A DNA stretch of 64,000 bases from Hydractinia symbiolongicarpus. Its lineage: Eukaryota; Cnidaria; Hydrozoa; Anthoathecata; Hydractiniidae. This document shows, one piece after another, positions 7,065 to 60,640 of the stretch. Numbering within the stretch: position 1 is the first letter of the stretch; each line of letters starts with the position of its first letter. The stretch lies in assembly GCF_029227915.1 (NCBI RefSeq), contig NC_079875.1, forward strand, positions 23,431,001 to 23,495,000. The letters are read 5' to 3'. The position numbers and the translations under genes were made by a program. Under the pieces are notes generated by a model. That model saw only the letters and a list, made by a program, of their open reading frames with translations, was not told the DNA's origin and searched no databases.

Positions 7065-7250
7065 ACTCAGCTAGAAACCCTGGTACTATTTGCGCTTGTT
7101 TAATTCTTGTGCCAGTTATCTCCTTGGAGGAAAGGAAGAATTGGGTTCTTTTTTATGGGCATATTCTTTAGAGGAGCAAAAGCTCTAGAATTTAAATTTT
7201 AAAACTTAACTGGTCGAGTTTATCATTGTGCGTGCACTTTGTAATTTTCA
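7065..7250 (+). repeat. Interspersed repeat R2, copy 1
   Basis: The segment with 'gcatattctttagaggagca' and 'taactggtcgagtttatc' matches 26535-26745 almost base for base over its second half. It lies just beyond the 3' end of the BEL/Pao integrase. It could be a remnant of that element's non-coding end or an unrelated repeat that truncated it. Confidence 0.75.
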
Positions 7251-8714: not shown

Positions 8715-10142
8715 ACGTTCGTAAAATTATATGTTCGGACCTAATTTTCCTGAAGTTCAGCTTTTCACAAAGACTCTTCGTCACATATGAGCGTTGACTA
8801 CCGCTATCGAATAACAAACGGGTCGTTAGCTTATGCGACGATTCATTGTTTGAGACCTTAGCTATAGCTGTTTGAAGCAAAATTCCCTGGGAAACGCCGA
8901 TGTGATTAGCAACACTTTCATCACCCTTGTTTCCAGGCCTCTCGTTATCTTGGCGACAAATAGAGATATGATGTTTACCATTACACTTTCGGCAAACATA
9001 CTTAGATGTGCAATCTCTCGCCAGGTGACCACTTTTTAAACAAAGAAAAGACTTAGAATATCTTTTTAAAACATTAGTTCTATCATTCGCTTCTTTGATC
9101 TTATCGCATTGAGAAGACCGGTGTTTCTTCAAACAATAGACACATTTGTGAATGAATGAGTCAGGATGCTCAAAACCTTGCACGTCTAAATTTTCAGCAG
9201 ACGAAGGAACTTTAGGCTTCCGATCGCGCTTCTCCGCAGAGGGAAGAACGCAATTTTCCTTAGCCCTCAGTTCCTCATCAAAAAATTTAAAAAACTGATC
9301 TAAAGTCCAAATATCTTCACCAAACTTCCTAGAAATAATCAATAATAAGTCCTCAGGCAATCTATCTTTTAAAATGGGAACAAGTAGACATCCAAAACTG
9401 TCCGTTTCAACATTCAAAGATTTTAAATTTCTCACACAAGTTTCAATATTATCAAACAGTTGTCTCAAACAGACCACATGCTCTAAACTCTTGACCTTAT
9501 TAATTTTAGACAAAGAATATAAATGAGCAATGATGAGAATTTGGCGATTACCAAATCTTTTTTGAAGCAAGTCAATCGCTTCCTTATAATTCTCAGTAGT
9601 TAAAGATAAACCAGTAATTATGGATAAGGCGTTTCCAGATAAGTATCTCTTTAAATAGTTAAATTTATCGATCGCGCTAATGCTTTCGTTAGTATTAATA
9701 GACACGTTAAACTGGTCCCAAAACCCTTGCCAATCTATGGGGTTACCGAAAAACACAGAGAGTTCTAATTTAGGCAATTTACACCCAGCAATACCTGAAC
9801 TATTAAACTTTTTACGGAGACACCATCCGACTCACTAGCCACTTTCATTTCGTTTAATCTCAAAGTTAGACCCGGTTGTATAACTTCCCTAGATGGCTTC
9901 AAAATTTTTCGACTTTCATACACGTCATTTTCAATATCGGCAATCTCCAGACTATTCAAAATCTGCTCATCAATTATTTCCAGTTCCTCCTTATTTTGAA
10001 GTAAGGTATCCCTTAACCCCAACAAAAGAGCCTCTGAACTCGTCTTATCAGTTAAACAATCTCTCGTCTCACCCACACTCTCCTCAAAATCCACACGCAA
10101 AGCTTTACGTCTAGCAAGTTTTCTGTTCAAAACAGAACTCAT
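8665..10142 (-). pseudogene. BEL/Pao gag and aspartic protease region
   Basis: 9765-10142 is the gag N-terminus (charged, helical). After a frameshift near 9800, frame 8665-9777 gives a DUF1759-type gag ('FWDQFNVSI', 'LSGNAL'). Three Cys/His knuckles follow: 'CVYCLKKHRSSQC', 'CLKSGHLARDC' and 'CRKCNGKHHISIC'. Then comes a retropepsin start 'LLFDSGSQRSYV'. The protease runs directly into the pre-integrase at about 8700. The whole reverse transcriptase and RNase H, normally more than 700 residues, is absent. Confidence 0.9.
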
Positions 10143-15325: not shown

Positions 15326-18300
15326 CAGGGTGGCCACTCGTCCTTGAAAACCTTGAATGTTCTTGAATGTTCTTGAATTTTATTTGGTCTTGAATTGTTC
15401 TTGAAATAGTATGTTTTCCACCCTTGGTTCTTGAATGTTCTTGAGTTTTTACAATTCTATGAAAAATCTTTTTAGAATAGTAAAAAAATGTCTAGTAAAA
15501 AAAGTACCAGAATGCATGGAAAAAGTATTTTTAATGAAAGTTGGTTGAGCGATGAACAGTTTAAAATATGGTTGAAAAGGGGACCAGATAAACACAAAGC
15601 ATTGTGTAGACTTTGTAACACAGTGATAGACATAACTATAATGGGAAAAAGTGCTTTAGCATCGCATTCTAAGGGCAACAAGCATCAAGTGAATGTGAAA
15701 AACTATAGTCCAGTTTCTGGTCTGTTCTTCAAAAGTAACCCTCCAAAGCCATCATCAAGCAAAGACGCCTCCCCCGCCACTAACAAGATTGATTTAATGA
15801 TGAGTACATTAGCAGTTTCCCATGCTGAAATTCGTTGGGCTCTGAAAGTACTAACATCACATCATTCATTTCGTTCTTGCTTGAATTTGAACCAGCTATT
15901 TTGTGTGATGTTCCCTGACAGTGACATAGCAAAGTCATTCCAGTTATCAAAAACGAAATGTGCGTACTACATCGTACATGGATTAGCCCCATATTTCATG
16001 GAAATCTTGCTCCAAGAAATTAAAAATTCGCCAACCTATTCCACACTTTTTGACGAAAGTTTGAATCATTATAAACAGGAAGAACAAATGGACGTTCAGA
16101 TTCGTTTCTGGAATGAAAATCTCTATGAAGTCCAGACACGTTACCTAACCTCAAGGTTTTTCAGGCGCCCAAATGCAGATAACATCTTGCACGAGATTCT
16201 TCAAGCAACTGATGCGTTACCCCAGAAATCAATGGTCATGCTTTCCATGGACGGACCAAACACTAATTGGAAAGTTTATGAAAATTTAAAATCGCATCGT
16301 ACTGAGAAAGAATATCCCCAAATTATTGATGTTGGTTCGTGTGGATTACACGTGGTGCACGGAGCCTTTCAGACTGGCGTAAAAGCAACTGGCTGGAAAT
16401 TGGAAAAGGTTTTAAAGGCCATGTGGAAGCTGTTCAATGATTCCCCAGCTCGAAGAGATCTATATATTCAGTTAAGCAAATCAGATGTTTTTCCAATAAT
16501 GTTTTGCCAGACACGCTGGGTTGAGGATGAACCTGTTGCCATCCGAGCAAAGGAAGTTTGGGAAAATGTTGTGAATGTCATAAAGCATTATCAAACCTTA
16601 TGCAAATCAAAACAACCAAGCAAAAACAGTTCGTATGACACCTTGGTCACCCACCACACTGACATGTTTATGCAAGTAAAGTTACAATTCTTTGTTGATG
16701 TAGCCAGCATGATGTCTTCGTATCTGAAGCAATTCCAGACGGATAATCCAATGATGCCATTTGTTTCGGAAATATTAGAAAATATTATCCGTCGGTTAAT
16801 GAAGATTTTCATTCGGAAAACCGTTATTGATGAAGCTGATTCAGCTTATTCTTTAATTAAAATTGATTTGCAGAAACGAGAGAATTATTTACCACCGGAA
16901 TTAGTCAAGTTACCAACTGCCACCAAAACCTTGCTTTCGTCCCTTCAAGCCAGTTTGACAAAGAAGTTGAAGTTTAAAGGAGAATGTGCTGCACTTATTA
17001 AAGGTATTATTGAAAAGCTACAAGAACGATCGCCATTGAAACACCTTTTTGTTCGATCTTTGTCTAGTCTTGTTCCAAAGAATATGATTGAAAGTAAAAA
17101 CTGTCTACTTAAGTTTGAAAAGGTCGTGGACAAGTTTTACACAACAAATCACATCAATTCAAAAGAAGCAGATAATGCCAAGTTGCAGTTGGAGGAGTTC
17201 ATCTCACGCACAGCTAAGACTCATAAAGATAAGTTTCTTGGCTTTAGCCTTTCTGATAATCGTTTGGATCATTTTTACCGCGAGTATTTAAACGGTTCTG
17301 ATAAATACAAAGATTTATGGAAAGTCATGGTGATGGTCTTCACTATTTCACATGGACAAAGCCAGATCGAGAGAGGATTCAGCATCAACAAAGAAGTCAC
17401 TATCGAAAATCTTAAAAACAAGTCACTATGTGCTCAGCGGTTGGTATATGATGCCTTAAAGTGTTGCAAGAAAGATGTGCATGATATTAAAATCACCGCC
17501 AAAATGGTTACATTATGTAAAACAGCCCGTTCTAGGTATGTATTTGCCCTTGAAGAAGTAAAAAAATCAAAAGAAAATGAAGCAGCGAATAACAAGAGAA
17601 AGATAATAGCATATGAGATTGATAGTGTGAAACGCAAACGAATGGAGGTAGATACATGTATTCGATCATTGAACAAAGATATGAACAACTGTCTTGATGA
17701 GGGCGAGGTTAGCCATGACATTGCTATGTTTCTGAAAGCAAATGCATTCAGAAAAGCCATTACAGAGAAAAAAGTGACAATGGTGGATTTAGATGAGGCT
17801 ATTAAAAAACTGGAGGAAGATCTCAAAAACTAATAACCTCTATAATACTCGTAGTTTGTTGACATTAGTTTATTTCAAGATATATGGATTATTTATTAGC
17901 TTCATATTAGCGTCATTTTGTCTGGTTCATTTTCTAATTTGAAGATCTTCTTATACAATACAATATATGTTCTATTTTTAATTGAGAATTAAAGTTTTAT
18001 AAAACACAAGAAATAGAATCCTTTGGACCGTTTCCATAATACTGGTAAATAGATTTTAGAAACAAGAAGAGAAGAACACTATTTATTGAACTTTGTTATT
18101 TTTGTGACTTTTATATTCTGTTATTTTTAGTTTTACACTTTTGTTACTATATAATTCTAGCTTTCTGATAAGTATTTATAAACTTGTACACAAAGTAGCT
18201 ATGTACTCCTAAAAGAATGATTTCTGGAACGATATCAACTTTATTATCAAGGTTTCTACATGTCTACACTCTTTTATTTTGTTCAAATTATCACAGATTA

Positions 18301-23519: not shown

Positions 23520-23667
23520 TTAGGGGCTGTTTATATGAGAGGCGGGACGGGACGATTGCCGGGACGGGACGTTTGCCGGGATGATTTTATCCCGCCCTTA
23601 TATGGAAAAAAGTGCGTCGGGACGATTTCACAACACAAGCGCCAAATTTAAATTTTTCTAAAGTATA

Positions 23668-24972
23668 ATGGCGCGTCAAAACGAAAACAAAACAAAATTG
23701 CAAGCGAATAAACAGATTTTTTTAACATTGTTGTTGCAGCTCAATACATTGTTAATGATTTTAGCACTTCAATACACTCACTATAGAACTCTTTTAACTG
23801 CATCACTTTTGAGTGGAAGCAAAAGAAACTGTTGGATAAAAAAACAGAAAGCATTGAAAGAGCAAAGGAAAAACCGAATTCCTCGTTCAACATGGTTCAA
23901 ACAAGGACGAGTGGAACAGTGGTGGTTGAACATGTTTTTTGATGTTCTTCCCGAGGAGGATTGGAAAAAGAACTTCAGAATAACAAAGGCTATGTTTACT
24001 GATTTAGTAGATCAAATACGCATATGGATTACTCCTGACAACACATCTCCAAATTATCGAGCCTTGTCTGCAGAAAAAAAAGTTGCAGTAACGTTGTACT
24101 ACTTGAAAGACACAGGATCTTTGTCAATGACAGCAAACACTTTTGGCCTGCACATATCTACGGTGTCAAAAGTCATAAGAGATGTTTGTAACTGCATAAC
24201 TTACAAGCTTGGACCAAAATACATAGCCCTGCCAAAAACGAAAGAAGAGATGCTTGAAAAAGTAGGAGAATTTGAGGCCAAATTTGGAATGACGCAAGCT
24301 TTTGGCTGCATCGATGGCACCCACGTACAAATTTTACGACCTAGTGAACATCCACAAGATTATTTTTCTTACAAAATGTATTTTTCTCTTAACGTTCAGG
24401 CAGTATGCGATTTCCGTGGCTATTTCATGGATGTTGATTGTAGGTGGCCAGGCAGTGTACATGACGCGAAGGTGTTCGCCAACTCAAATATTGCTGCTAA
24501 ACTTAAAGATGAGGAAATACCAATTACTTATGAGGACATCCTGCCAGGCCGAGCCAAAGTTTCAAACTATTTGATTGGTGACCCTGCATGGGCCTTGACA
24601 CCGTACTGTATGAAAGAGTACCATAGTTGTTCAACAAATGCTCAAGTGTTATTTAACAACATGCTCCGGTCAGCAAGAAACCCAGTCGAGTGTGCTTTTG
24701 GACGCTTAAAAGCCAGATGGGGTTTTTTAGCAAAGAAAGTTGATTTAAAAATAGATTTTGTTCCTGTGGCAATCTATGCATGTTTTGTGCTGCACAATAT
24801 ATGTGAACTTAACAAATGTGTTATTGACCCTGATTTGGTGAAAATTGAAATAGAAAAGCATAAAGCAGAGACACAACAATTAGATTACTCTGTGTATTTA
24901 GGAAATCTTGCAGAGGGTGGTGTTGTACGGGAAGTTATAACAAATTTTATACAGGACAGTCTTCCATACTAA
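23668..24972 (+). CDS. PIF/Harbinger transposase, intact
   Basis: 434 residues, a usual length for the family. A basic N-terminal third has a helix-turn-helix ('TANTFGLHISTVSKVI', about residues 155-170). The DDE_Tnp_4 core follows: first Asp in 'GCIDGTHV', second in 'YLIGDPAWAL', catalytic Glu in 'NPVECAFGRLKARW'. The typical 'RWPGSVHDAKVF' lies between them. All three acids are present and there is no stop, so the protein could still be active. Transposition also needs the Myb-like partner, which is broken here. The first ATG after the left end was used as start. Confidence 0.92.
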   Translation: MARQNENKTKLQANKQIFLTLLLQLNTLLMILALQYTHYRTLLTASLLSGSKRNCWIKKQKALKEQRKNRIPRSTWFKQGRVEQWWLNMFFDVLPEEDWKKNFRITKAMFTDLVDQIRIWITPDNTSPNYRALSAEKKVAVTLYYLKDTGSLSMTANTFGLHISTVSKVIRDVCNCITYKLGPKYIALPKTKEEMLEKVGEFEAKFGMTQAFGCIDGTHVQILRPSEHPQDYFSYKMYFSLNVQAVCDFRGYFMDVDCRWPGSVHDAKVFANSNIAAKLKDEEIPITYEDILPGRAKVSNYLIGDPAWALTPYCMKEYHSCSTNAQVLFNNMLRSARNPVECAFGRLKARWGFLAKKVDLKIDFVPVAIYACFVLHNICELNKCVIDPDLVKIEIEKHKAETQQLDYSVYLGNLAEGGVVREVITNFIQDSLPY

Positions 24973-26534: not shown

Positions 26535-26745
26535 TCGAAACCCTTGTACCCTTTACAGAAGTCCTGTCCTACTCTCGCTGTCTGTTTGTTTGCTCAATTT
26601 ATGTGCCAGTTATCCCCTTTGAAAAGGAAGAATTGTGTTCATTTTTATGAGCATATTCTTTAGAGGAGCAAAACCTCTAGAATTTAAATTTTAAAACTTA
26701 ACTGGTCGAGTTTATCATTGTGCGTGCACTTTGATAAACTCGTAA
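26535..26745 (+). repeat. Interspersed repeat R2, copy 2
   Basis: Second copy of 7065-7250, starting at 'gtcgaaacccttgtacc' and ending after 'gtgcgtgcactttg'. The most conserved part is 'ttaaattttaaaacttaact'. It follows immediately on the damaged right end of the Harbinger element. Confidence 0.75.
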
Positions 26746-27054: not shown

Positions 27055-28065
27055 TTAACCTTTGTCTATGGCTAACAACTGTTTGTCAATTTTGGTAACT
27101 TCTTCCAAGGCTAACGGCGCTTCATATATGTCCCGGTTTATATTTTTGCTATGTTCCATATGGCGGTAAAACTGTTCTCTTTCATTTTTGCTTAAGTCCA
27201 ATGCTGAAAATAACGTACTTATTTTGTGGCGATTTGCTATGGCCTTTAAGTTTTGCGGCATTTTTAACGGCAAAACATCGCAAACACGGTGTAACGAGTG
27301 CCAGACACTCGGAATTTCTGATACTTGAGAACAAATATTTATTGGTTTTGTTTATTCCGGCCTGTTGACGTTCAGCTTTGTCGCAAAGATACTTCAAAGC
27401 TGGAATGGTGTCCTCTGATATAAGCAAAGGGACCAAATGGTTGTTTCCCGTCCCCGTCATGTAACATAATTTCAAGGTCTTTGCTAGGATTTGGTCTAAT
27501 TCATCCAAAATTTCTGACCTTTGCTTATCAATCCATTCATCATTAATGGCTTCAGTCCACTCGTTGATTGTTAGTTGGGCAGGCTCTCTTTCTCTTCGTG
27601 CGTTTAACAACGTTAATCTTGTGCATGCGCTGTCTCGTATTGCCACAAAGTTATTTCTTCAATGAAGTCGAAAGTCTTCTGGCTTTCGTGAAGCATGATT
27701 TTTATCCCGTGATTTCTCATCATCTTCGTCCGGCTGCTTCTCTGGTCTCCGGAGATTTCCCACAATTCAAAAATTGAACAAATTTTTCTAATTTGTTGGC
27801 CTGCTCATCGTTGTCTTCGGAAAATAATGCTTTCAGAACTTTTGCGCTCCTCTTCAGTAAACAAAGCAGGTTTTGTTTCAATCCAGCCTTCTAACGCTCC
27901 AGTTTCTAATACTGCCATTTCTTCAATAGCCAATCGCAAGCCTTGGAAATTACTCCGCAGGAACATGTGTGCTGCATTTTTGTGTACTTCATTCATTTCA
28001 TGCCTCAAAAATTCTAAATATAACCCATAAAAACATTTTTGACCTGCAATCTTTATTTGATTCAA
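27055..28065 (-). pseudogene. Crypton-like tyrosine recombinase relic, paralogue of the exon at 46381-47556
   Basis: Minus frames align part by part with the YR exon at 46381-47556. 27182-27646 has 'TRLTLLNARREREPAQLTI' (box I Arg region, GG changed) and 'LCYMTGTGNNHLVPLL'. 27055-27273 has 'NRHKISTLFSALDLSKNERE', 'HMEHSKNINRDIYEAPLAL' (His-x-Gly-His changed to HMEH, Tyr retained). A frameshift lies near 27290. 27805-28065 is the upstream helical part. No introns are seen in this span. It shows the recombinase is a multicopy family in this genome. Confidence 0.8.
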
Positions 28066-40270: not shown

Positions 40271-41431
40271 TTAACCATCTAAATTCCAAATAGAATTACA
40301 GTTCATATAAAACAATAAATTTTCTCGCAACTGTGAAAATGAATTATATTGCCGTGGCAAATACAGAATCTTGAAACATGTCATCGATCTAGGTCTGAGA
40401 TGATCTGGTGGTTGGTTAACATAATCCAATTTGATTGATAAATCAGGTCTAAAACTTCTACATCCAGTAACAAATGTTAACAATGACAACAATTCTGGTT
40501 TGGATGAACTTCTGATATACCTGTGTAACCAAGTGGTTATTTTTTGCTCATGTTGGTTCGTCTCACAAGAAGTTATGCTCTTGATGATGTTTTCAGGAGT
40601 GGGTATCGTTAGATTGTATAAAGCAGTAATCACCTGATCTGAAAGTTTCCTCCAAAATATGCCCATACCATCTATCAATAAATTAAAGAAAGACGATGGC
40701 ATTCTCAACAATGCCACCTTCCTTGCTTTAAGTACTAATGTCATTATATTTTCCTTTTTAGGTTGGGCGAACACTCCATAGTCACATAAAATGTCCACAA
40801 TAGCTTGTGTATCATTAAATTCGCCTTTACTGAATTGTCTGATTAAGTCTGCTTCTTTTGTAGTCACAAAATCTAAAAATGACTCAACAATTTCTTTATC
40901 ACTCACAGAAGCAAGTAGAAAATATTTCATGGAACTTTTGCAAATTTCAAATGTAAACATATTACATTGAATGAAAGCATGATTTATTATTTTACCAATA
41001 ATATGTAACTGTAAGCATATTATATAAACCAGAAGAAATTTTGTAATCTGGACTGATTGTAACCCCTCGATAATCTTTAAGATAAAAAAATTCTGGTTCA
41101 GGAGATAAGGAACCAACCCAATCATAAACTTGATGGAATAAAGCATCACTGCAGAAAATCCTTACTTTAGTACCAAGCGAGCAATGTCTGACAGAAACTG
41201 TGGCATGAGGATCACTGAGACTTGGTTCTTCCTCCAATCGCGCTCTTCTAATTTCCATCAATGCAATCAATTCATTGTTCCAATTTGTTTCATATGCCGC
41301 TTCAGGAGCCTCACCTGTCACCTTGTCACCGGCAAGAGAAGCTTCAAATGCCTGATCGATATCTTGTTTCAACTTATGTCGTTCTTGTGAGCTTCCAATC
41401 AGTGAAGAAGTTGGTGTTGAAGTAAGCAATG
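40271..41431 (-). CDS. HECT-type E3 ubiquitin ligase-like (G2E3-like), probably lacking the N-lobe
   Basis: 41431-41010 begins after an acceptor-like 'acattttag' and contains 'ALMEIRRARLEEEPSLSDPH', 'VSVRHCSLGTKVRIF' and 'HQVYDWVGSLSPEPEFF', a UBL-like module seen before HECT in invertebrate G2E3-like proteins. From 41008 down, another frame gives 'HIIGKIINHAFIQ' (HECT N-lobe end). The C-lobe follows: 'LLTFVTGCRSF' and 'MTCFKILYLPRQYNSF', with the thioester Cys in the normal place, ending 'IWNLDG'. About 180 residues of HECT N-lobe are missing between the two parts, by deletion or an unseen exon. It may be a pseudogene. Upstream exons were not found. Confidence 0.65.
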
Positions 41432-43771: not shown

Positions 43772-45955
43772 TTAACTAGTTAGTCCAATTTCTTTCAACC
43801 TTTTATTCTTTATGTCATCGAACTTTTTCCGCTCGTTGTTTATTTTTGTTCGCACAGCGAAGGCAAAATTGGCTGATCCAAAGTAACTTTTTGCAAAATT
43901 TTCCATTTCCAGTCGACCTAAAATAATGCAAGAATGATTGAGTATACTCGCACAAAAGACACAAAATAGTTGCTTTAAGCAACTATGCCTCATTTGCAAG
44001 TGATTGTTCAAACAATCTATTTACCTATACTTAAAAACCATCGAACAAAAGCTAAATTATTTGATACCTGGAAATGGTCGATCATTGGTGCGACGCACGT
44101 AACAACCAAATTTTTCGAAGAACACTTTATTTAATTCCGGAGTCCACTTGACACTGGATTTGACAGCTAAGTATAAAAGCAACAATAAGATAAGTTTTGT
44201 TAATATCAAACCTAAAAAAGTGGTTTAACTAAACCTATATATATGAAGAAGCGATAAAAGTGTTCAACTTACGTTTGCATTTCAATCTCTCATTCTCTTC
44301 TTTATCTATTGGAATAAAATCTGGTTGTTTTTTAAACTAGAAAATTCCTGGAAATTATAACTCTTGGTTAGCAAGACGACCATTCAAACTATTATTGCTT
44401 TAACAGAAAAAATATTGTCCTTTATAACTTATATATAGCAGCGTTTTTATACTATGGCAACTCAAAAATCAGTAAAGTTAATGACACTTGAAAGATCTAA
44501 GCATTTTTCAACATATTTAATCTCCAGGATCATTGGAAAGTTGAATTTCTGAGAGAATTTAAGATTGGGGAAGACGCCAAATTCTTTAAAATCTAATTTG
44601 CACACGAAGCAACCTACAAAGGTTTCTTTAAACTTAATTTTTTACATCACTTACCTTCATAGGAAGTAGGATCACATGAATCATCTCTAATTTGGGCATC
44701 TAGATAGAAATGGATATTCATAAACATGAAATACATCTTTTGCAAAAGATACTTGTACATCCCATAAATTTTAAACAATCCAGGTTGATATTTCTCGGTA
44801 TATAAATAATTTTCATAACTGTCTAAGTGTTATTGAGAAAACTAAAATAAATAATTAAAACAGAAAGACTCTTGAAAGGATACTCACCAGTAATTTTAAC
44901 GTACTTTTTTCTTTTTTTTGATCTGCCTATAATTCAAAGTCAAATGTACAATCAAATGGTCAACAAAAAATACATTTTTATTTCGGTGAACTCGCAATTA
45001 CTTTTAAGTAAGTGAAAAAAAGTTAAGTACATGTAATTTGTAAAAATATTACGTTTAATATTAGTGATACTAGACAATTTTCCGCAAAAACGTTAAGTAA
45101 TATATTTTGCATAGAGGACTATAAAAACAACTTATATTTCATATGATTTTTAATTGACCTATGTGAGATTTAAAACAAATAAGGTCTGGTTTTCAAATTC
45201 AATGTTCTATAAATAAACATTTCCCACAACGCAGAGTAGGACAGGTTGAATAAATATTGTTTGACAAAAAAATCAAAACTCAAACCACTCACCACGCAAA
45301 GGATACTTCCTAGCTTCAACTGGTACTAAAAACAAAAACAAAACAAAAAAACCATCGTATATCTAAAACAAGGTCATGGTTGGTATTATAAATCAGACGT
45401 TGTTTTAAATTAAATTTAAAACTAACCATTTTTTGATTCAATAGCTTCTTCATCCGATGAACTGCTCGACAGCATCATCACTCTTTTCCCCACTGATCTT
45501 TTTGTCTTTGTCGCTGAATAAAAAACCAAAAAAAACAAACACTTTGCAAGTCACTGAGGCCCAAAGGATTGAATCAATAAACTACAGTGAAGTATTAACC
45601 TTCAGCTGATGTTCTTACGGGAGTACTTGTCACTGCATAGTTAGTTGCCAATTTCTTGTCTTCTAAAGAAAGAAAGTATTAGTCTGCTATGTAGTCCATT
45701 GAGCAGCTTTAAGGTAATTTTCCAAACAATATAAAACAATGATGGGGAAGATCTTTAGGTTTTGGATCACACATTGCTTTGAAAAAATTTCATCAAAAAC
45801 AATGACTAATAAAAAGAACAAAATAACGAGTTTTGTAACTAACAGAAATTTTCTCTATTTGCACCAGACAACATTAGAAAAAGCAAACATACCTGTATGA
45901 GTTTTGTCTTTAAATGTTTTTAAACTTTTATCAGTTTCTTCAATATGACCGTTAT
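43772..45955 (-). CDS. C-terminal short exons of the fusion gene (basic stretch and helical DNA-binding-like module)
   Basis: Nine exons, mostly 33-99 nt and nearly all phase 1-1, encode a Ser/Lys-rich tail. One is 'TKTKRSVGKRVMMLSSSS', another is a nuclear-localisation-like 'RSKKRKKYVK'. The last two give 'VKWTPELNKVFFEKFGCYVR' and 'RLEMENFAKSYF' ... 'RTKINNERKKF', a short helical module like the Myb/HTH-type tail found after recombinase domains in related proteins. Uniform phase means exons can be skipped without frameshift, so alternative splicing is easy. For 44273-44320 the acceptor 'caaccag' was used because the upstream 'tctag' would create a stop. Confidence 0.65.
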
Positions 45956-48900
45956 CTATAAACAATCAAGTTATAAACACTGAAAGACTTGCTAATCATG
46001 AAAAGTCATTCTACATTTTGCTCATCTGCAATCTTTTAATAATTTTTTAATGAAATCAAATTTGGAACACGTATTATTTCGATCATAATAATCGTGAAAT
46101 AATATTAGCTGATTTGAACATTTGTTAATACATTATAAGAAAAAATTAAACAAATAAATGAAATACAGTGGTTAAAACGACAAAAATTTATAAAAAAAGG
46201 TTTAATAAAACATAACCCGGCAAGTCTTCCATTATATCCTGGTTTCCTAAATCTCAATAAACAAGAAAAAAATTAAATTTACCACTCATGATCTATGATA
46301 AAGTTGTTACCTAGAATGCGTGCCACTTCCACAATTTTATTCCATACAGAAAGGCTCCTCCCTAACAAATAAATACATACCGCTTGCATGGAGATTTATT
46401 AATTGTTTTCCAATCTTTGTGACTCCCATTAAAGCTAATGGGGCTTGATAAATATCTTTATTCATGCTTTCAGAATGACCCATATGGGCGTAGAACAGTT
46501 GTCTTTCCTGTTGTGGCAGGTCCAACGCAGCATATAAAGTGCTGACGCGGTGTCTATTAGTGGTTGCATTTATAATTTCCACATTGGTAAGTTCTAGTTT
46601 CTTACAGACTTCTTTCAATGCATGCCAGCCAGACACATTTAAAGATGACAGCTGTGTGCTGGCAAACACAAAATCATTATTTTTATCGATACCAGCCTTG
46701 ATTCTAAATTTTGGATCAACTAACCTTTTCATAGCAGAAGTAGTGTCGTTTGGAAATAAAACAGACACCAAATGATGATTTCCTTTACCCGTCATGTAGG
46801 TTATTTTTAGTGAACTCACTAATAGTTTGTCAGCTTCATTCAAACTCTGAAGACGTTGTTGATCAATCCAATTATCGCTTTCTGCTTCTAACCAATCTTT
46901 TACTAGGAGGCGACTTGTTTCCCCACCACGGCGCCCATTCAATAATGTTAGTCGTGTGAGTACTAAGTTCCTCAGTTCAACAAAAGAGTGAGCAGTCCAT
47001 AACTCAAAAACACACAGTAGTTCACCCATTCTCTTGAGAATATGTTGATGTATTTTCTCAATGTCGCTTTCCAAAGGCAACTGACATGGTTTTCTTATTT
47101 TAACTAGCCTTTTTTTTTCAAGCTCGTATCGTGCAGAGGAAACCATGCAATCCTCGTTGGCTTTATAGCATACCATAAATTTTTCGATTTCACTGGCCTC
47201 CTCTTCGTTAGCTAACATATATTGATGAGCATACAATATTTTTACACTTTTGTTGATGATGTAAAAAACATTCTGGCGTAGTCCTGGCTTAAGACTACGA
47301 TCAACATTCAAAGTAACAGCGTCAATGGCATCAGTAAAACACGTAAAATTCTTTCGCACAAACATATCTAACAAATTACCATGATCATGACAAACGCCAT
47401 TCATCCTCTTAAAAGATTGGTACAGGCTACCTAACACTCGCATATGACCCCTAACAGATTTATTCACGGTGGCTGCTTTTTCTTTTTTGACTACAAGCTT
47501 TGCAAACAACTTCATTCCAATTCGTAATATCATTTCATCTTTGCGACATATATTTCCTATTATTAAACAAGGCAAATTAAATTTTCAAATATTTATTTTG
47601 TGTTTAAAGGTTTAGAAAATTAAAAAAAACATTATTTGCATCAATTTTAATGTACAGTGGAAGGTTGTACATTGAAATAGATGTTCTTAAACCTTTGGGG
47701 GCGTGAATACAAATTAAATAAACCTACATTTTTTTTCTGTCAAACATTTGTGAGTATTTATTTTAACGAAATAAACTTAAAACCTTTTGAAAACATAATT
47801 TTATGAATTAGGTCAATAATCTAAAAGATCAATTCATATATTTTTTTTAAATTAAACTACAACTTTAATTGAACACTTTTTTTACTATTTCGCTCATAAA
47901 AAACAACAAAAAAATGTTACACTTGATCATATCCAGGATGTAACATGATTATGTTTATTAAATAATTATTTGAATGAATTAAGGATTTCTATGAAATACA
48001 TAAGGACTTTTAATGAATAGTACAAGTATTTTTTAACTCCTTAAATCCCAGAAGTTTCCTTTGCAATTTTTTATTATTTTTGATTACTGTAGTTATTCGT
48101 AATAATTTAATAAAGAACAATGAAAATTTCATGAATTGGTAACAAATGTGAAGAACAGGGATGTTATCACCATAAAGCTGTCCTACAAATCAATTGCTAA
48201 ACTATGAACAAGTATGGAAAAAAGCTCGTAACGTAAATATAAAAATGATAACTTACCTACGGGATCATCTCTAAGCTTGGCCAAAATGACTTCCTTGAAT
48301 TGATCCGACATTTGGAGTGACATTGGAAGGAAGTCCAGTGACAATGGCAAGCCTGTTGGGACAGCATCTTGTCTTCTCATGCACGTTCTTTTGTGGCTGG
48401 CAAAGAAACGCTTAGAGATAAAAGCAGAGCATAAATTACAACGTTGCAATTCCAAGTATTTCTTTCTTTGACGTTCTCCTTGGAAAATAGGATTTTCTGT
48501 GGTAGCTTGCAACTTGTTGTACATTAAAATTCCTTCCCTTTTAATTTTTTTCCATTCCTCAATTTGCTTCACCTTAGTCATCTTTAGTGCATTTTTCACT
48601 CTTTCATTTTCCTTATGACATTTTTTAATGTGTCTGCTCAATTTTGAAGACATTATAGAACAATAAATGCACATTCTATACGGTTTTTTGTAAGGACTTT
48701 TTTTCTGAAATAAAAAGATAAGATGATTCTAGAATTGCTACATAACACAAAACATAAAGCCTTGCATCAATAATCCTAAATTTAAATAAAATAGCATTGG
48801 AAAGTATTAATCAGTCAGTAGTATATAAGTTTACACAATCTTAAAATGCATCGATAATAGTACCTGCAGTTTTTTAGACTCGGCTTCAATTGTTTCCTGT

Positions 48901-51900
48901 TCACTATCAGTATTCACAATGTCTAAATCCTCATCAATCTCCAAACCAGAATCATTTTTCACTGAAACCTGTTTGTGTTAAATAATACTATTGATAATTA
49001 AAAATAATAAATTAGGAAGCAACTTGTTGGTAGTTCAAAAGGGCTGAACAAATCATTGTAAATTAAATAAGCATCATCACAAAACTCACTTGTTCACAAC
49101 AGCTGACTTCCCTAATGGTCTGCGTATGTTCAGCAACTTGACACACCTGCAAAATTTCCAGATATAAAAAAAGCTATGCAAGGATGTATGAAAAGTTATT
49201 ACAAACATACAATACCTTTGTCGATGCTAGAGTTTCTATTTCTTCAAGATCAACTTTCATCTAACATTAATAAAGAGTAACTATTAGGTGTATTTAATTA
49301 TTACTATTGACCGTAGGACCTAATGGAATTGATTTTGGACTTTGACCTTATAAATGCAGGAGATGAGAAAATTGGACTCCCAGAATTAACATTCTTCTTA
49401 CTTTGGCATGAATGCTGGAACTACACTACATATTGCTTAAATTAAGTAATCATTTGGTGGTGCATGCTTTATTACCAAGTCATAAACATCAGACAACTGA
49501 CAAAACAAGTACTTTTAAAATAAATTTTTAAAAAAAATAAAAACAAAAAAATTGAAATTACATGCCTTCAATGCACAAGGCAAATTAAGCAAGTTTGGGT
49601 CAAATCCGAGAAATTAAATTCTAACAAAATGTCAATATTTCATGATTTTCAACAAAAGTTCTACAAAAATAAGTTTTCAACCAATAAACCATTCAATTGG
49701 CGTTAAATGGAAAAGTTACTGAGCACAAAAAAAGATTTGGTTTTATAAAATCTAATCTTTTAAATTTAATGATTTTCTGAATAAATGAAGAATTTCCTAT
49801 AATTTTCTCTAATTATAACCAGTGCATCACAATGTAACCTTTGTAAACCAAAATTAACTGTCAGGTAATTTTACCATGAAGTTAATTTTTCATTTTTTCA
49901 CTTCAACAATTCATAATTTTCAACATTTAGGTAAATCGATGACAGTATATTTTAGCAGCAAAAAAAAACATGAAAATTTTATTAACCTGAACTAACATTT
50001 GCTGAAAATATACCGGCATTTGTATTAAATTTAAATTAGAAATGCTGCAATGTAAAAAATATATGAGTAATGATGGAATACATACGAACTTCTCCAATAC
50101 TTTTGTCTAAAAATAAAATAGCATCAATTTATTACTATAATTATCATACCGTACAACTTTCTAGTGGACTCCAACTACACTGTATTCCAATAAAAAAATT
50201 GTGCAATGTCTTTATAGCATAATTATAACGGTAATAGTCTAAGCATTTCTTATATTAAATCAGGTGCTATCTATATCTCCTCCTCACAATTCAAAATCTT
50301 CAAAAATAAAAATGTACATAGGTAAATCTTTATTATATCGCAATAAAGATTCACCTATGTATATGCACCATCCCGATAAACTATCTAACATATTGCCGTA
50401 GTGTGGTGTAGTGGTTTTGTCTTTGGCTCCCAACTCTAGGGTCCGGAGTTCGAATCCCACTCGCTGCCTAGCAGTATGTTAGTGATGAACAAAATAGTTC
50501 TTCTTCATTATAACAAAAATGTATATGGGAGAATTCTAACATACCAGTGTTTCAGTTTTGTCATTTCTAAAAAATAAACATAGAAATATTACAACAAAAT
50601 TATCTTTAAAGAACTAAATAAGTTACTTTAATTTCGACTAAAAAAGCATTGTTTACGTCGTTTACAGCAAATCTCATGTGAATGACACCATAAAAACACC
50701 AATTTTTCATAGTTTCGTTTGTAATATTTTATCACTTTTTGTAATATTTGAAAACAATAATTACCTAAAATTAATTTTTAATGGAAAAGTTGTTTCTTCA
50801 TTACTACCATTCAAAATGGAACACTAAAAAATGAATAGAAAGTTTAAAATTTTTAAGTATTATTAGTGGAATTACTGGACCTTCAATACTTACTGTTTCG
50901 CTGTCAGAACTGCTGAAATCAGGGACAATTTCAATTTCCTGAAACATAAATATTTATCATCAATACAATTAAAAATTATACTTTAAACGGAATCATGAAT
51001 TGCATACATACCGGATAAGTAATTTTTACATCATCGTCACTACAATCCAGCTTGGCAAAATCTATGTCCTTGTAGTAGTCTGCAAATTTATCTCCACCAA
51101 TGACATTCTTTTTATTTACACCACTGCCAATATTTTCCTGAATCTTTTTTTTTGATTGGTAAGTACTGTTCTTGTACGTATTTACACCTGATGCAACCAC
51201 ATCTGCACTCTTGTAATTTCGACCTTGGACACTGACAACATCTGCAATGATCTCAGCAACTTGTTCTTTATTTTCACAACCTATTTTCATATCCTGTATA
51301 CCAGCAATATTCGTTTCCTCAACATTCTGTCCATGTAGAGGTTCATCACCACAATATCTGTCCCCTTCGTTTGATTCTACTTGTGTATAAACAGTAGGAT
51401 TATCCACCTTATAACTCACACTACCAGCAACACGATTGACCAAAACTGCATCTTTGCCTTCACCTACACTTTGATTGTGTAAACTATCAGAATTATTGCC
51501 CTTGGGTTCACATACATCAACAAAATCAAGAACCTTGTCATTAGTGACACTTCTATCTATAACACTGACAATATCTGTAATGATTTCAGCAGCAACTTGT
51601 TCTTTATTTTCACCAACTATTTCCATATCCTGTATGATAGATGTGTTTTCAACATTTTCTTTAAGTTGGAGTTTATGAACACAATATTTCTCCCCTCCCA
51701 TATTTTCTAATTGCATGTAAACAGTAGCACCATTTGTCTGATAACCACCATTAAAACCTTTGCATTTAATATTTTCCTCTACTTCCTCCTCTAATTTTTC
51801 ACACAAATCAACATTCTGACCATTGATAGCAACTGAATCTTTTCCATTGCCTACGTTTTTACTATATAAACGAACAGGATCGTTATTCTTGGGTTCATAT

Positions 51901-54900
51901 ACATCAACAACATCAATAAACTTTGCATTCACATCATCTTTATCTTTTACACAGGTGTCAGATTTTAGTTCAATACTTCCGTCTTTTTTCCAAACAACTA
52001 CTTGATCACATTTTTCTTCGTCATTTTCCCCATTATCTAAAACAAATAGATCAGGTAAGGAGTATTCAAAAGTAAATAACATGTGTATAATACATATATA
52101 TTGCAGTTCAGGGTGTATGCTACTCAAATTATTCAGAAACTTATATTTTGTTCAGTTCATGTTTCTAAACTATTTAGTTACAAATTTAATATTGCTTCTG
52201 GATTTTCCTTTCTTAACCAAGTTGTAATATCTTTGTTTAACCTTTTTCATAACATCCCAAAGAAGAATGAGATTAATTTTCCAGATGGACCCTCCTAAAT
52301 AAATTTATCCTGCATAAGTTCTATTTGAATTAAATCAGTCAAAACAGTATCTACAGAACCCAGAACCTATAGTACAGCATAAAATAGATAAGTGTAAGCA
52401 AATTAGGAAAATAATGTTATAATTACTGGAATTAGGCACTTAAAGTGAGACCATCCATAAAAATATGTCTGTTTTCTGTAACCGACACATTAAAATATCT
52501 TAACAGCTAGGTAGGCGATAATATTTTTTACATAAAAAAAATCAGTATCATATTGTCATATTTTTGACATTCTGCGTAAAGCATGTGAAAATCTGCATGA
52601 CACGTGAAAATAACAAACCTAATAAATCAACCTATAAACCTAATAACATAACAAACAAACCAAATCAGAATTTAATTAGATAAAGAGTGTGAATTAAAAT
52701 ATTTACACTGATTATTTCAAATTATATGGATTTGGCATACAATGTGTATTTATAATTCATAAACTTTTTGTACTTATAACACTTCACCCAGCCATTTTAC
52801 CCGAAACAAACACATTTTTAGAGATAGCATGGGAAAGGGTGTTACGTAATTGAGAAATTTTCACACATTACAAACCTATCACTTCTGTTTGAAGAATGCA
52901 ATCATGAATCTAATAAAAATAATTCAATATTTTTAAGATACATGTAACGTTAAAAACAACATAATTAAAGTATATATCTTACCTTGTCCAGACATTCCTT
53001 GACATCTTCCTCTGTTGTTGCACTACCAGAAATGAATTCATCATCCTAAGTGCAATATTAGCAAAAAATTACTGTACAGTAGAAATAATTTTGTTTTATT
53101 TATGGGAGTGATTCTCAAAAATTATCTTTGTGCATGTTTCGTCTATATGGAGGAGCAAAAGATTGCTTTATAAGCAACATATTTTTTGTTGTATGGTAAA
53201 AACATAAATATTGTGCTACAGTTTAACTCTTGTTATTAAATACAAAAAAATTGAAATCGATAACATATTGGTTAAACAAATCATTTTCAAAAATTGGATA
53301 AAATTAAGTCATTTTGACACATATCAGAATTCCAATCTTAAAAACTACACAACATAAAATATTTAAATGAAAAAGAGAAAATGAAAATTGTGGATATATA
53401 ACTGATTATAACTTAAAATTATTTCAAAATGACTTGTACAGTAATTAGAGCTAATATCGTGAAAGCTTTTCTTCAAAATTAACTTTTTAGTATGGCTAAT
53501 AACAGGAACCAAAACGTGGACATCATGAAAGATTACAATATTGATACAAAAACATTTTGCCTTAAAAATGTAGATGGCTTACATGTTCAGAATAAATCTG
53601 CTTTTTTTGGTTATTCTAAAATCACAAAAAAGGTTTTATTATAAACACAAGAATTTTTTGAACAAAAAGTTCAAAATCTATGATTGGATACTCACAATTA
53701 CATTCCCAGGATTGCATAAAACAAACTGAAAAGAAAGAAAAGAAAAATAGCAGTTACTCTAGTGAAGAAAAAGAAAAATGTATATATTACAAAAAAACTT
53801 ACTCCCTGCTTGGTAACAACATCAATATTTGCAAAATATGGTGAAGCAGTCTCCTTGTTCTAAACATAATAGAAGTAACAGTTGAAGTTCTCAAAAAAAA
53901 TTTAGAATATTTTTTTGTATTTTTCAAAAAAGAATCAAAAATAATTATTGTTAAGGCGACTCCAATGTTCTACGGGAGAAATCGATAGTAACTTACAGTC
54001 GGTTGGCAAAATAAAAATAATTTTATTGAGAATGTATGGTTGGAACAACAACAAAAATAAAGAAATACACACTAACAACAGCGGTTAAAAAATAAAAAAA
54101 TTCAAAAAAATCGTTTGTAACCGTTTTAACTCGCTTGGTTGATTTGAAATTCATTTCGTAATCATTTCCAAATCATTTTGTATTCATTTCCCATTAGTTT
54201 TTCACAAAAATAAGAATTAATTCGTTTCATCTACGTTAAATTCGTTTCGGTTCAAATTGTTTTAAAATCGCTTAAATTGTCACACATGTTTATAAGACAT
54301 TGTCAATTTCTAAAGAAATTTAACTATCAAATTACGTAAATAACTGCATTCTTCTTGCAGAAATAATAAAATTCTTCGCTAAAAACGAATATGTAACAGA
54401 TTTTCTGTTAAAAAAAGTTTTAGCCGATATTATTTTTTTGTTTTCGTGAAAATTAGAGTCTGTCGAGCCTGTAGAACAACTAATGAAGTTGAAGTCGCCT
54501 AAAAGTTACAAAATGAGAAAAAATCTGTGTGTGCTCAAAGTTAAAATTCCTCAAATATATTTAATCTGTATGATAATTAAGGAGTTTTAAAATTCCTCTA
54601 ATATATTTAACCTGTATGATAAGTAAGGGGTAACTAGGGTAATAACTAGGTTCTGCAAAAACACTTTACCTCTATGTTTAATAAAATATTCATGACTTAT
54701 TAATTATTCACAAACATAACATTCCTTTAGCATGATTTTTGCAGTGCAAAATTTTTGAATTGCATTTTCTCGAAATAAAATTTTCCAACATAACAGTACA
54801 TAGTTTTGTTGAACACTCCCCTCCATTTTGTCGAAATTCTACGAAAATAAGTTTGTTGCGACAATTTATTTGGCTACAAAACTTTGCTTTTTTTAGCGCA

Positions 54901-56300
54901 AAAGTGAGAAAATATCGAGGTATTGATCCATCATATACTTAAAAATTGATCAGTCATAAAACAGCTGTTGTAAAACAAAATATGCTATATTTTTTGAACC
55001 ACGTTTTGTTTTGAGTAAAAAAAGCAAAGTTATTTAGAGCTGAATAAGATCTTTGCAACCATATGTTTTTCAAGAAACAAAAATTTTACTGAAGGGAGTG
55101 TTTGGTAAAATATACTAGAAAGGTGAATTTTTGTAAATAATTTTTCCTTCTTGGATTTTTTTATGGAAATATTTTATCATCATTCTAGAGATAATTTATT
55201 TGGCTTTCAGAATATATATATATATATATTTGTTACAGTTAATAAAGCAAGCAGAGAAGATATTTTAAATATACTGAGAATGTGTCTAAGGGGGTTACCG
55301 TATCCTTAATGGAAGTTGATGTCCTTTAAAAGGCATTCCAGGAATGCCTTTTTAGAGGACAATTGCATCGCATAACTTGGTGAACTGGCGTATGTGATTG
55401 ATCACATAAGCACCTATTTTTAAAATGAGAAGCCTGATTCATCACAACTATAAAATCTAACTAAAAAGAAATAACAAAAAAGTGACAAAGATACTCACTT
55501 TTCTCCAAAAAAGTTCTTTCATATCTCCATACGAATATCTCAACTCTTCTCCAATAGATATGACTTTGTCACACAAAACAAACAGGCAAAGATGCAAATG
55601 CCCATTATCATCATATATCGGTTTCATGCAACAGTTTTTGGCATTTTTGCTGTCATTAACGTATTTCCCAAACTGTGTGTTCTCAGTTGCATCGATGCTA
55701 TTATAAATAATCTTAAAATTGCAGTATATTACCTAGAGTACTTTTCAAATTTCACAACTGACTTTTGTGACAATTTTCCTGAATATTTTATGAAAATCAA
55801 ATTTTCCATTTTTCTCAAAAGAAAATATTTTTTGCCGGCATTTATTTGCAAAAAATTATCCTGTGCTCTTTACAAAATTCGTAAATAAAGTTTCTTTCCA
55901 ACAATCTTTACGCAAGTAACTGCTGTGGATATTAAAATAATCACAACATATATGTACAATTTGCTTACCAACTGTTATTATAAAAAAATAAAAAGGAACC
56001 AGCTTCATCAGGATATGTAGATTGCAATTTTTCACCCTCAACTTTACTAATACAATTTCCAGCATACTCAAGAAGAAATTCACCATGTTGAAATGTTTTT
56101 GTAGCAAACACTCCAAAACCTTATAAAAAAAGTTGTATCATAATAATGTAAAACAGTTCACACCCTATTTGGAAGCATAATAGACGTATACCTATGTTGT
56201 CATTGATGAATAATTTCTGGAAACCACTTTGATCTGCTTTTTGTTTGCAATAATACTTTGCAATAGAACGTGGGTCTGTCTCACGCTTATTCTGTCGTCT
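43772..56300 (-). CDS. Multi-exon gene: SET methyltransferase + zinc finger + tyrosine recombinase domain protein
   Basis: Reconstructed from GT-AG borders. Exons (high to low): 56192-56300, 55969-56119, 55499-55697, 53803-53859, 53696-53725, 53583-53615, 52983-53045, 52876-52909, 51012-52036, 50894-50938, 50765-50823, 50545-50566, 50086-50106, 49216-49260, 49090-49146, 48864-48968, 48257-48704, 46381-47556, 45893-45955, 45600-45662, 45427-45513, 45293-45325, 44888-44926, 44655-44699, 44273-44320, 44068-44166, 43772-43917. Every junction keeps phase and no stop appears, giving about 1430 residues. Domains in order: SET, acidic repeats, Cys/His fingers, YR recombinase, short-exon tail with a basic stretch. 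The first exon(s) with ATG lie upstream and were not found. Fifteen exons are under 60 nt. Alternative: two adjacent genes wrongly joined near 55499/53859, but the phase agreement argues against it. Confidence 0.75.
46381..47556 (-). CDS. Tyrosine recombinase (Crypton/phage-integrase-like) exon
   Basis: 392 residues in one exon. The N-terminal core-binding part is helical and basic ('KLFAKLVVKKEKAAT'). The catalytic part has box I Arg in 'TLLNGRRGGETSRL', a Lys/His stretch 'TYMTGKGNHHLV', box II 'NRHRVSTLYAALDL' (Arg kept, the preceding His of HxxR is Thr), 'HMGHSE' (His) and the Tyr in 'KDIYQAPLAL'. So Arg, Arg, His and Tyr are all present, which is compatible with DNA breaking and joining. 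Cryptons and their domesticated descendants have this fold. A decayed paralogue lies at 27055-28065. Confidence 0.85.
48257..48704 (-). CDS. Zinc-finger-like exon of the fusion gene
   Basis: Two Cys/His groups are seen. 'CIYCSIMSSKLSRHIKKCH' is C-x2-C...H-x3-C/H, a C2H2-like finger. 'CNLCSAFISKRFFASHKRTC' is C-x2-C...H-x3-C, about 75 residues later. A basic linker lies between. The exon ends 'KLRDDPVG', completed by the next exon as 'NICRKDEMILRIGMKLFAKL', the usual lead-in of this recombinase family. Role is presumably DNA binding. Confidence 0.8.
50315..50362. repeat. Foldback: about 21-bp inverted repeat in an intron
   Basis: 'tacataggtaaatctttatt' pairs with 'aataaagattcacctatgta' with one mismatch around a 6-base loop. 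It lies 25 bp before the tRNA-like SINE, inside an intron of the fusion gene, and may be part of the same mobile insertion. Confidence 0.8.
50385..50482 (+). repeat. tRNA-like SINE unit flanked by 12-bp inverted repeats
   Basis: 50398-50468 has an A-box-like 'tggtgtagtggttttgtc', a B-box 'gagttcgaatccc' and six acceptor-like pairs (two G-U). The flanks 'ctaacatattgc' (50385-50396) and 'gcagtatgttag' (50471-50482) are complementary with one mismatch. It differs from the SINE at 2269. It sits in an intron. A functional tRNA is unlikely but cannot be excluded by eye. Confidence 0.6.
51012..52036 (-). CDS. Long acidic exon with internal 129-residue duplication
   Basis: 342 residues rich in Asp, Glu, Asn and Val, predicted disordered, with no known domain. 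Two tandem units are visible. 'VVDVYEPKNND' ... 'VYMQLENMGGEKYC' ... 'IIQDMEIVGENKEQVAAEII' is repeated as 'FVDVCEPKGNN' ... 'VYTQVESNEGDRYC' ... 'GIQDMKIGCENKEQVAEII', about 387 bp later. The phase is 1 at the start (D completed across the intron) and 0 at the end. Confidence 0.75.
54541..54640 (+). repeat. Tandem duplication, about 57-bp unit, intronic
   Basis: 'aaattcct.aaatatatttaa' and 'ctgtatgataa.taagg' occur twice in order with few changes. It lies in the large intron between the SET exons and the next short exon. Confidence 0.8.
55321..55361. repeat. Hairpin, 19-bp arms, intronic
   Basis: 'gtcctttaaaaggcattcc' is followed directly by 'ggaatgcctttttagaggac', nearly its complement. 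The long perfect stem without loop is unusual. Role unknown. Confidence 0.75.
55499..56300 (-). CDS. SET domain exons (KMT5A-like lysine methyltransferase) of the fusion gene
   Basis: Three exons. The first gives a basic lead-in ending 'QKLFINDNI'. The second starts 'GFGVFATKTFQHGEFLLEYA' (the GxG cofactor loop and following strand). A TG|C codon is completed across the splice to give 'SCIDATENTQFG', and the third continues 'KYVNDSKNAKNC', 'HLHLCLFVLCDK' and 'GEELRYSYGD' (C-terminal catalytic Tyr region). The order matches KMT5A/SET8-like domains, which methylate histone H4 Lys20 or other lysines. The usual NHS near the cofactor site reads NDS here, so activity is uncertain. Length (about 150 residues) is normal for the core. 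Confidence 0.8.
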
Positions 56301-58671: not shown

Positions 58672-60640
58672 ATATAATATATATGTAAATATATGGTAGT
58701 ATAAAGACAAAGTGATTTTATGCCAAATACAAGTCAAAATATAGTACGTTTATATTAGGCCTGTTAAGTATTACTTATAATTTATTAATTATAATCGAAT
58801 AATTATTCTATTGAATTCTTCACCACCATCATTTGCATGGTGAAATTTAGCCCATAGTAGGATTAAGTACTTTTTTCTACAAGAAAAAAAACTTACTTTT
58901 GACATTGATGCAAACTTTTATTTATTGTCAATTTACCTAGTAACAAAGATTTAAATATGCTAAACATAGACCATAATATATTGTTCTGTTTCACATGAAA
59001 ACCTATTACCATAATCAACTTTTTTTAACATATATATACATAGATATTTCAGGGTGTTTGTAGTTGCGGCAATCATGTCTCAGCTGAATAGAACCAACCA
59101 CAATAATTTACAAAATGATTAATTAAATGTGTGAGTGGGTCAGGAATACACAGCGGGGTGCAACTTACCGAAAGAGATTCAGGAGAGTTTACTGTATTTA
59201 AAGAAACTCCTAATTTTGCAAGGAAAAGACTATACATTTGTTTAAAAAATTAAGCAAAACATATACTTTTTTATTGTAGTAAAACATCGTTACTATATCT
59301 GAGCATCCCACAAACTACCAATTCAGAAAATCAAATAATTTATGACAACATTAATTTATCAATCAAAACAAGATTTGCTTAAATTTGACGGAAAACATAA
59401 TTCAGATATACTGTGATAGTATTGTTCTGCCCAATCTTAGGAGACTGCCCAATATTTGGACATAAAAATGCCCAGTTCGTCAAAAGATTAGGCAGGAGAC
59501 CATGGATGTGACACACAAGCTCTGTTGTTTGCAAGACCCTACAAACATTCTCAGGCACATAAAAATATATTTGGGGTATGTACATCAAAAACGAATTTGC
59601 CAGTACTGTTGAATTGACCAGGCCAGATTTGGCTAAGACGGGGGCCGTTTCAAGATTGGGCAGAACAGTATCATTGGGAAATTAGCAAGATAGTTTGATG
59701 ATATTGTTTTCGAAAACGCTGTATTTGATCCAATTTGATCAATAGACATATAGTTAAAATTGTAATACTATTCTCACTTCAAGGGAAGGTTATATTTTTT
59801 GTGGTGAGTCAATAAATGTAAGCTTGCTGTATCAAGCTGGTTTCTAATGTCTGACATCAAGCAATGACAGATGAGCATTAAGTGCACAAGAATATGTGCA
59901 TGATTCTGTGCAAAAATGCAAATTTGGACCAGAAAACACACACACATTAAGGTTCCAGTATTTTGTGCAATTCAAACAACCATATTTCAACCATGACAAT
60001 ATACAGTAGTAAAAGCTGTTGATGTGTGCAAACTGAAATTGAAAGCTATGACCTTGACCAAAAGAATAATAAGGCGTCAAATAAGAAAAACTGTTTTTAC
60101 ACTCAGCTATGCTAGCTAGCTATCACAGTGAAGTTAGTTTTAGTCAAATTCACAAGAAAATAAAAGAAAACAAAGAAAGTAAGAAACAGAAAATAAAAAC
60201 ACAAGAAACTTTGGCGGCTCAAAGCGCGAAGAACTTTCCCGCATCCAATATATGACGTAATGTTGGTCAATACTGCTACGCTATTGGTCAACAGTTTTTG
60301 GTTGCCTTTATATATAAATGGCGAACATAGTTACGCTAAATTCAGCGGTGCCTGGAGAAATTATGAAAAGGTATATGGTTACAATAGATTACACTTTGTT
60401 TTGCCCTCGAAAGGACATGGTCAGAGAATCTATATACTTTAAATTTTTAAGTTTTTAGTTCCTAGTTACGCCTGTGTATGTTAAGGGGTTTATAATCTTG
60501 GGTAATTAGATCATTTTAATTTGTTGTCTTACTTGTTCAGTTATTTTTGTTAATGTTTTTTAAATTTCTTATAGACTGAGCAAGTTGAATTTTGTAAACA
60601 AACTTTATGTAGACAGTTGTTTCATAAAAATGGAGTGTAA
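58672..60640. other. No recognisable gene; one inverted-repeat element inside
   Basis: Only short frames without motifs. A TATA-like 'tatatataaatgg' preceded by 'atgacgtaatg' occurs at 60252-60320 and could be a promoter, with no gene recognised behind it. The element at 59411-59676 is listed separately. Confidence 0.3.
59411..59676. mobile_element. Candidate MITE, about 265 bp
   Basis: 'tgttctgcccaatctt' (about 59423-59438) has an exact complement at about 59652-59668, with weaker pairing continuing inward ('gcccaatatttgg' and 'gccaaatctggcc' complement). A clear target duplication was not seen. No coding capacity. Confidence 0.55.

Follow-up and report, generated by a model that had tools for sequence, protein, structure and literature searches.

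Gene structure

The window, i.e. the whole 64,000-nucleotide stretch of Hydractinia symbiolongicarpus DNA analysed here, contains on its minus strand a gene of 28 coding exons spread over 15.1 kb, the predicted product of which joins a SET domain to a tyrosine-recombinase fold. A sequence-only reading had placed one gene of 27 exons at 43772–56300. Rebuilt from the sequence, these 27 exons (56300–43772) have AG-GT borders, matching phases and one frame of 1428 codons without internal stops, followed by a lone stop ending at 43772. The rebuilt chain is more than a chance arrangement, since it is nearly identical to a public annotated protein: LOC130649644 isoform X1 (P0001; 1431 aa, Hydractinia symbiolongicarpus) begins with MSK and from there on reproduces the 1428 residues, apart from a single substitution at position 642. 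The annotation has a RefSeq-style automatic name, the gene model being known from genome sequence and annotation. The MSK exon, ATGTCAAAA followed by GTAAGT, was located at 58905–58897 on the minus strand, and ATG-(Ser)-(Lys)-GT has a single minus-strand match between 56300 and 64000. The coding part thus runs from 58905 to 43772 in 28 exons; the 3' end first proposed stands and the 5' limit moves outwards.

Exon 1 (58897–58905) provides the start codon (ATG TCA AAA) and a GTAAGT donor. Exon 2 (56192–56300) specifies the pre-SET region and the start of the SET domain, and is represented in P0001. The SET domain continues in exon 3 (55969–56119), recognised by Pfam and matched in tblastn by P0004 and P0009, and in exon 4 (55499–55697), which carries the NDS and GEELRYSYGD motifs and was matched in tblastn by at least six fusion relatives. 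A linker follows, made up in the rebuilt chain of exons 5 (53803–53859), 6 (53696–53725; 30 nt), 7 (53583–53615; 33 nt), 8 (52983–53045) and 9 (52876–52909; 34 nt), the acidic exon 10 (51012–52036) with its internal two-copy repeat (D1, D2), and the acidic exon 11 (50894–50938). Exons 12 (50765–50823; 59 nt, phase 0 to 2) and 13 (50545–50566; 22 nt, phase 2 to 0), the short pair singled out in the sequence-only reading, were both recovered, and exons 14 (50086–50106; 21 nt), 15 (49216–49260), 16 (49090–49146) and 17 (48864–48968; acidic) complete the linker. Two zinc-finger-like Cys/His motifs lie in exon 18 (48257–48704), and the complete recombinase fold, core-binding plus catalytic domain, in exon 19 (46381–47556). 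The tail begins with linker exons 20 (45893–45955), 21 (45600–45662), 22 (45427–45513), 23 (45293–45325), 24 (44888–44926; basic), 25 (44655–44699) and 26 (44273–44305), and ends with exons 27 (44068–44166) and 28 (43772–43917; stop TAA), which specify the two halves of a conserved C-terminal helical domain. Fingers and tail are on the same predicted polypeptide, as had been claimed.

Exon 9 restores the frame across the gap between 52983 and 52036. It was found in an intron scan with a simple custom score, where it ranked first among the 12 candidates listed, and the residues that it encodes are present in P0001. Its donor is weak (GTTTGT), which, together with a gene model drawn from genome sequence and annotation, would fit at least two distinct host genes that both the sequence reading and the automatic annotation had joined in error. 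The phases nevertheless agree throughout the 27 exons, and a SET domain also stands ahead of fingers and recombinase in Hydra, in a sea urchin and in a second Hydractinia protein; we consider such a misjoining highly improbable. By annotation and by recurrence in relatives, the fusion of SET and recombinase is real at the level of predicted proteins, and the proposal of one gene with a single polypeptide is borne out.

SET domain

The SET domain was identified by Pfam at E 4.9e-11, and KMT5A/SETD8 accounted for the best 14 of the 60 PDB sequence rows listed for it, in agreement with the KMT5A-like domain named from the sequence. In a whole-protein fold comparison of the predicted model of a Hydra member of the family, all of the best 50 rows listed were SET domains. 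By sequence the closest SET is that of KMT5A, a histone H4 lysine 20 methyltransferase, and the fold comparison of the Hydra model agrees. NHS is the usual motif of SET domains. It is present in KMT5A (PDB sequence comparison) and not kept here: among five complete fusion SETs aligned, four have NDS and one NDA. A further difference from KMT5A is that the SET domain is here embedded in a fusion. These comparisons support a KMT5A-like lysine methyltransferase domain of predicted activity. A protein search with the SET part alone recovered, among 85 candidates, just the gene itself.

Tyrosine-recombinase domain

Fold comparison of the predicted structure of the exon 19 product revealed a two-domain tyrosine-recombinase fold, like that of XerH (309 aligned residues), Cre (1crx; 297) and lambda integrase (1z1g; 263), at 10–14% identity. 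In the viral fold library, nudivirus very late factor 1 ranked first (E 9.3e-4), and none of the other rows among the 127 reached E ≤0.001. The catalytic residues, compared with the R-K-HxxR-H/W-Y signature of the superfamily and assigned through motif and spacing rather than superposition, are mostly conserved in a 22-row family alignment: the first arginine occurs in 22 of 22 rows, the lysine in 21, and the R/H/Y set in 21, the one remaining row being incomplete. The conserved set in the family is R, E, K, R, H, Y. Unlike XerH, Cre and lambda integrase, the family has T for the H of HxxR (21/22 rows), and 48 residues separate the catalytic arginine from the lysine. The pattern GHS-(7-9)-Y occurs in 36 of the 41 family proteins. 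A tyrosine-recombinase fold is supported by the predicted model, and most catalytic residues, as assigned, agree with it.

The name of the recombinase family came from fold comparison alone, none being given by Pfam, PHROGs (four proteins) or the PDB sequence profile; the Pfam recombinase models had zero matches to the family in the scans run. PMC3212892 reports DUF3504 matches of E 8e-12 or stronger for the recombinases of CryptonA. For the present protein HMMER gave no DUF3504 match up to E 1 within its filters, and there was none among the 25 families listed for 22 members (single-member matches down to about E 0.35). Since DUF3504 is not matched, the fusion family was not filed as CryptonA. 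The "Crypton-like" label proposed from the sequence is apt in a loose sense: the fold and most catalytic residues agree with it, but DUF3504 is not matched and HxxR has T for its H. The Pfam check of the joined exons returned SET and not DUF3504.

Zinc fingers, acidic linker and C-terminal tail

A motif search placed the zinc-finger-like motifs at residues 700 and 777 of P0001, and their cysteines and histidines are invariant across the 22-row alignment. An acidic DPDYVPD-like motif was found by pattern in six of the 41 family proteins. The profile of the C-terminal domain matches 12 of the 41, seven of which were used to build it. In the predicted model of the Hydra member this domain forms three helices; the sequence profile of the helical tail had no match in the PDB below E 0.04.

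Recurrence of the fusion in other animals

The family comprises 41 proteins pooled from three protein searches, its named hosts being Hydra, Hydractinia, Strongylocentrotus, Apostichopus and Holothuria, that is, hydrozoans, a sea urchin and sea cucumbers. A SET domain was found in eight: Hydractinia P0001 and P0004, Hydra P0009, P0023 and P0024, sea urchin P0017 and, in part, the environmental proteins P0018 and P0020. The SET profile used was built from five family proteins, all of them among these eight; Pfam alone found SET in six of 22 members scanned. The pairing is present in a second Hydractinia protein and in Hydra, and also in the sea urchin. The architecture had been called unusual: the fusion is present, and since it recurs in other animals it is not unique. 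Similar SET plus recombinase proteins may also occur in teleost fish.

The first finger could be recognised in 33 of the 41 proteins. At least 300 residues precede it in 14, of which eight possess SET and six do not; fewer than 300 precede it in 19, none with SET (the remaining eight proteins are unclassed). Because SET is confined to proteins with a long N-terminal part, its absence may be due in part to gene calls that are cut short. Two pattern searches for further members were unproductive, as none of 11 matches in a viral contig collection and none of 26 in a genome contig collection was confirmed by tblastn.

In the recombinase tree, hydrozoan and environmental rows form one cluster (99/97), and the echinoderm rows a less firm one of their own (91/92). 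Divergence within Hydractinia is considerable: P0003 and P0004, which are the other proteins named for this genus that extend across exon 19, have 48% and 45% identity to this gene. Hydra P0023 and P0024 are near-duplicates (89.6% identity over an alignment with 101 gaps). A profile scan of the 41 proteins revealed a kinase in P0004, P0006, P0023 and P0024. In Hydractinia P0004 SET precedes the kinase, and in Hydra P0023 and P0024 it comes after the kinase; such opposite orders ahead of the same kind of recombinase suggest domain shuffling.

One old joining with subsequent losses, or several joinings, are both possible from these comparisons. Several independent captures of SET, with different recombinase genes drawing on one shared pool of KMT5A-like exons, would be an origin compatible with either co-option or mobility, and a plausible if tentative account. 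It draws on the opposite domain orders, on the recombinase tree, where the SET labels of 13 rows (28 of 41 being unlabelled) require three changes and 88 of 500 shuffles do with as few, and on the weak correlation of SET and recombinase identities among five proteins (r 0.56, a value reached in 10 of 120 permutations). The NDS or NDA common to the five complete fusion SETs fits one source instead, and the SET-less environmental proteins may be cut short.

Recombinase relics and other features of the window

Two decayed recombinase sequences, both on the minus strand, lie apart from the gene. The larger (27058–28023; 96 tblastn pieces, three frames for P0024) was matched by all 41 family queries, looks intronless and has altered arginine-box and lysine motifs. 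Other members lie nearer to it than this gene does (P0024, the nearest, at E 4e-65; P0001 at 7e-42). The smaller (5940–6067; 17 tblastn pieces in two frames, 9 of 41 queries) corresponds to the C-terminal end of a recombinase of this family, and P0029 and P0001 score alike against it (1.8e-6 and 1.9e-6). A repeat of about 100 bases common to 7150–7250 and 26640–26740, near each relic, was noticed by eye.

Other features include, downstream of the gene, a minus-strand open frame with a HECT domain (40274–41161; Pfam E 5.1e-9). A plus-strand open frame of 435 residues (23665–24969) contains DDE_Tnp_4 (E 3.7e-34) and presumably specifies a Harbinger-type transposase. Pieces of a retroelement (7334–9831, minus strand) show DUF1759, a weak DUF1758, an rve integrase core and DUF5641. 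A 784-residue open frame (15479–17830, plus strand) has by eye the look of a zinc-finger transposase and went unmatched by Pfam at E 0.01. Rfam and tRNA scans of the window gave no matches.

These relics bear on the possibility that the gene belongs to a mobile element lineage with its own chromatin-modifying enzyme, in which the recombinase would cut and rejoin DNA and the SET domain (and the kinase in relatives) would aid persistence or integration by acting on chromatin or on proteins of the host. The scattered decayed copies speak for such a lineage, and the conserved catalytic residues, the near-duplicate Hydra proteins, the spread across hydrozoans, sea urchin and sea cucumbers, and the differing SET-kinase order in Hydra and Hydractinia point the same way. 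Against it stand the 28 coding exons over some 15 kb and the result of a repeat comparison of the gene's two ends, in which no paired end repeats were seen flanking the gene; we regard this explanation as unlikely. Its fuller form, a mobile-gene lineage in animals whose recombinase polypeptide, catalytically intact, carries its own histone-type methyltransferase, sometimes with a kinase, and would write chromatin where it cuts, seems to us more doubtful still.

Comparison with known systems

By analogy, the nearest known system in logic is SETMAR (Metnase) of anthropoid primates, whose origin, about 50 million years back, involved the Hsmar1 (mariner) transposase and in which the transposase domain aims the methylase at transposon-end remnants (PMC6326780). 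In both, a single polypeptide couples a SET methyltransferase to the DNA enzyme of a transposon; here, in contrast, the SET is KMT5A-like, its partner is a tyrosine recombinase, and the hosts are hydrozoans and a sea urchin. Membership of SETMAR itself, with its mariner DDE transposase, is ruled out by the recombinase fold, and no transposase Pfam family was found in the full-length fusion protein.

In kind of enzyme the nearest are the Crypton elements and DUF3504 genes (KCTD1, ZMYM2-4, QRICH1, WOC), eukaryotic tyrosine recombinases of which some were co-opted beside other domains; SET and kinase partners go unmentioned in the available part of that account (PMC3212892). The present family differs from them in lacking a DUF3504 match and in keeping its catalytic residues except the H of HxxR. 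Mariner elements of large DNA viruses offer a parallel, as mobile elements that also encode a methyltransferase, but they do so in separate genes with separate products. One of these methyltransferases is a DNA cytosine methylase and a second has Methyltransf_26, SET not being named in the portion available (PMC3627910). A literature search whose coverage excluded subscription papers and preprints found no paper describing a SET plus tyrosine-recombinase fusion, and "Crypton", "SET domain" and "tyrosine recombinase" do not occur in the main text, as available, of the Hydractinia genome paper (PMC11067881).

Proposed origin and function

The most likely explanation, SETMAR-like in logic, is a co-opted recombinase that would bring a methyltransferase to DNA. 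The many small exons and the deep divergence from P0003 and P0004 across exon 19 are the points in favour of a host gene, and we infer with moderate confidence that co-option is likelier than mobility. The host gene would then probably have been made by joining a KMT5A-like lysine methyltransferase to a tyrosine recombinase of mobile origin, and would serve site-targeted DNA binding and methylation. The recombinase fold, paired zinc fingers and helical tail would bind specific DNA sites, which may be relics of the element family, and the SET domain would then methylate a lysine there, whether on histone H4, on another chromatin protein or on the complex itself.

SETMAR is the well-known fusion of a methyltransferase with a transposon enzyme, and belongs to one primate lineage. 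The present gene and its relatives in hydrozoans and a sea urchin appear to realise the same idea from other components, and most of the recombinase site is preserved. They open to test the possibility that mobile recombinases and chromatin writers have been joined repeatedly, and that such a fusion may mark or silence copies of the element.
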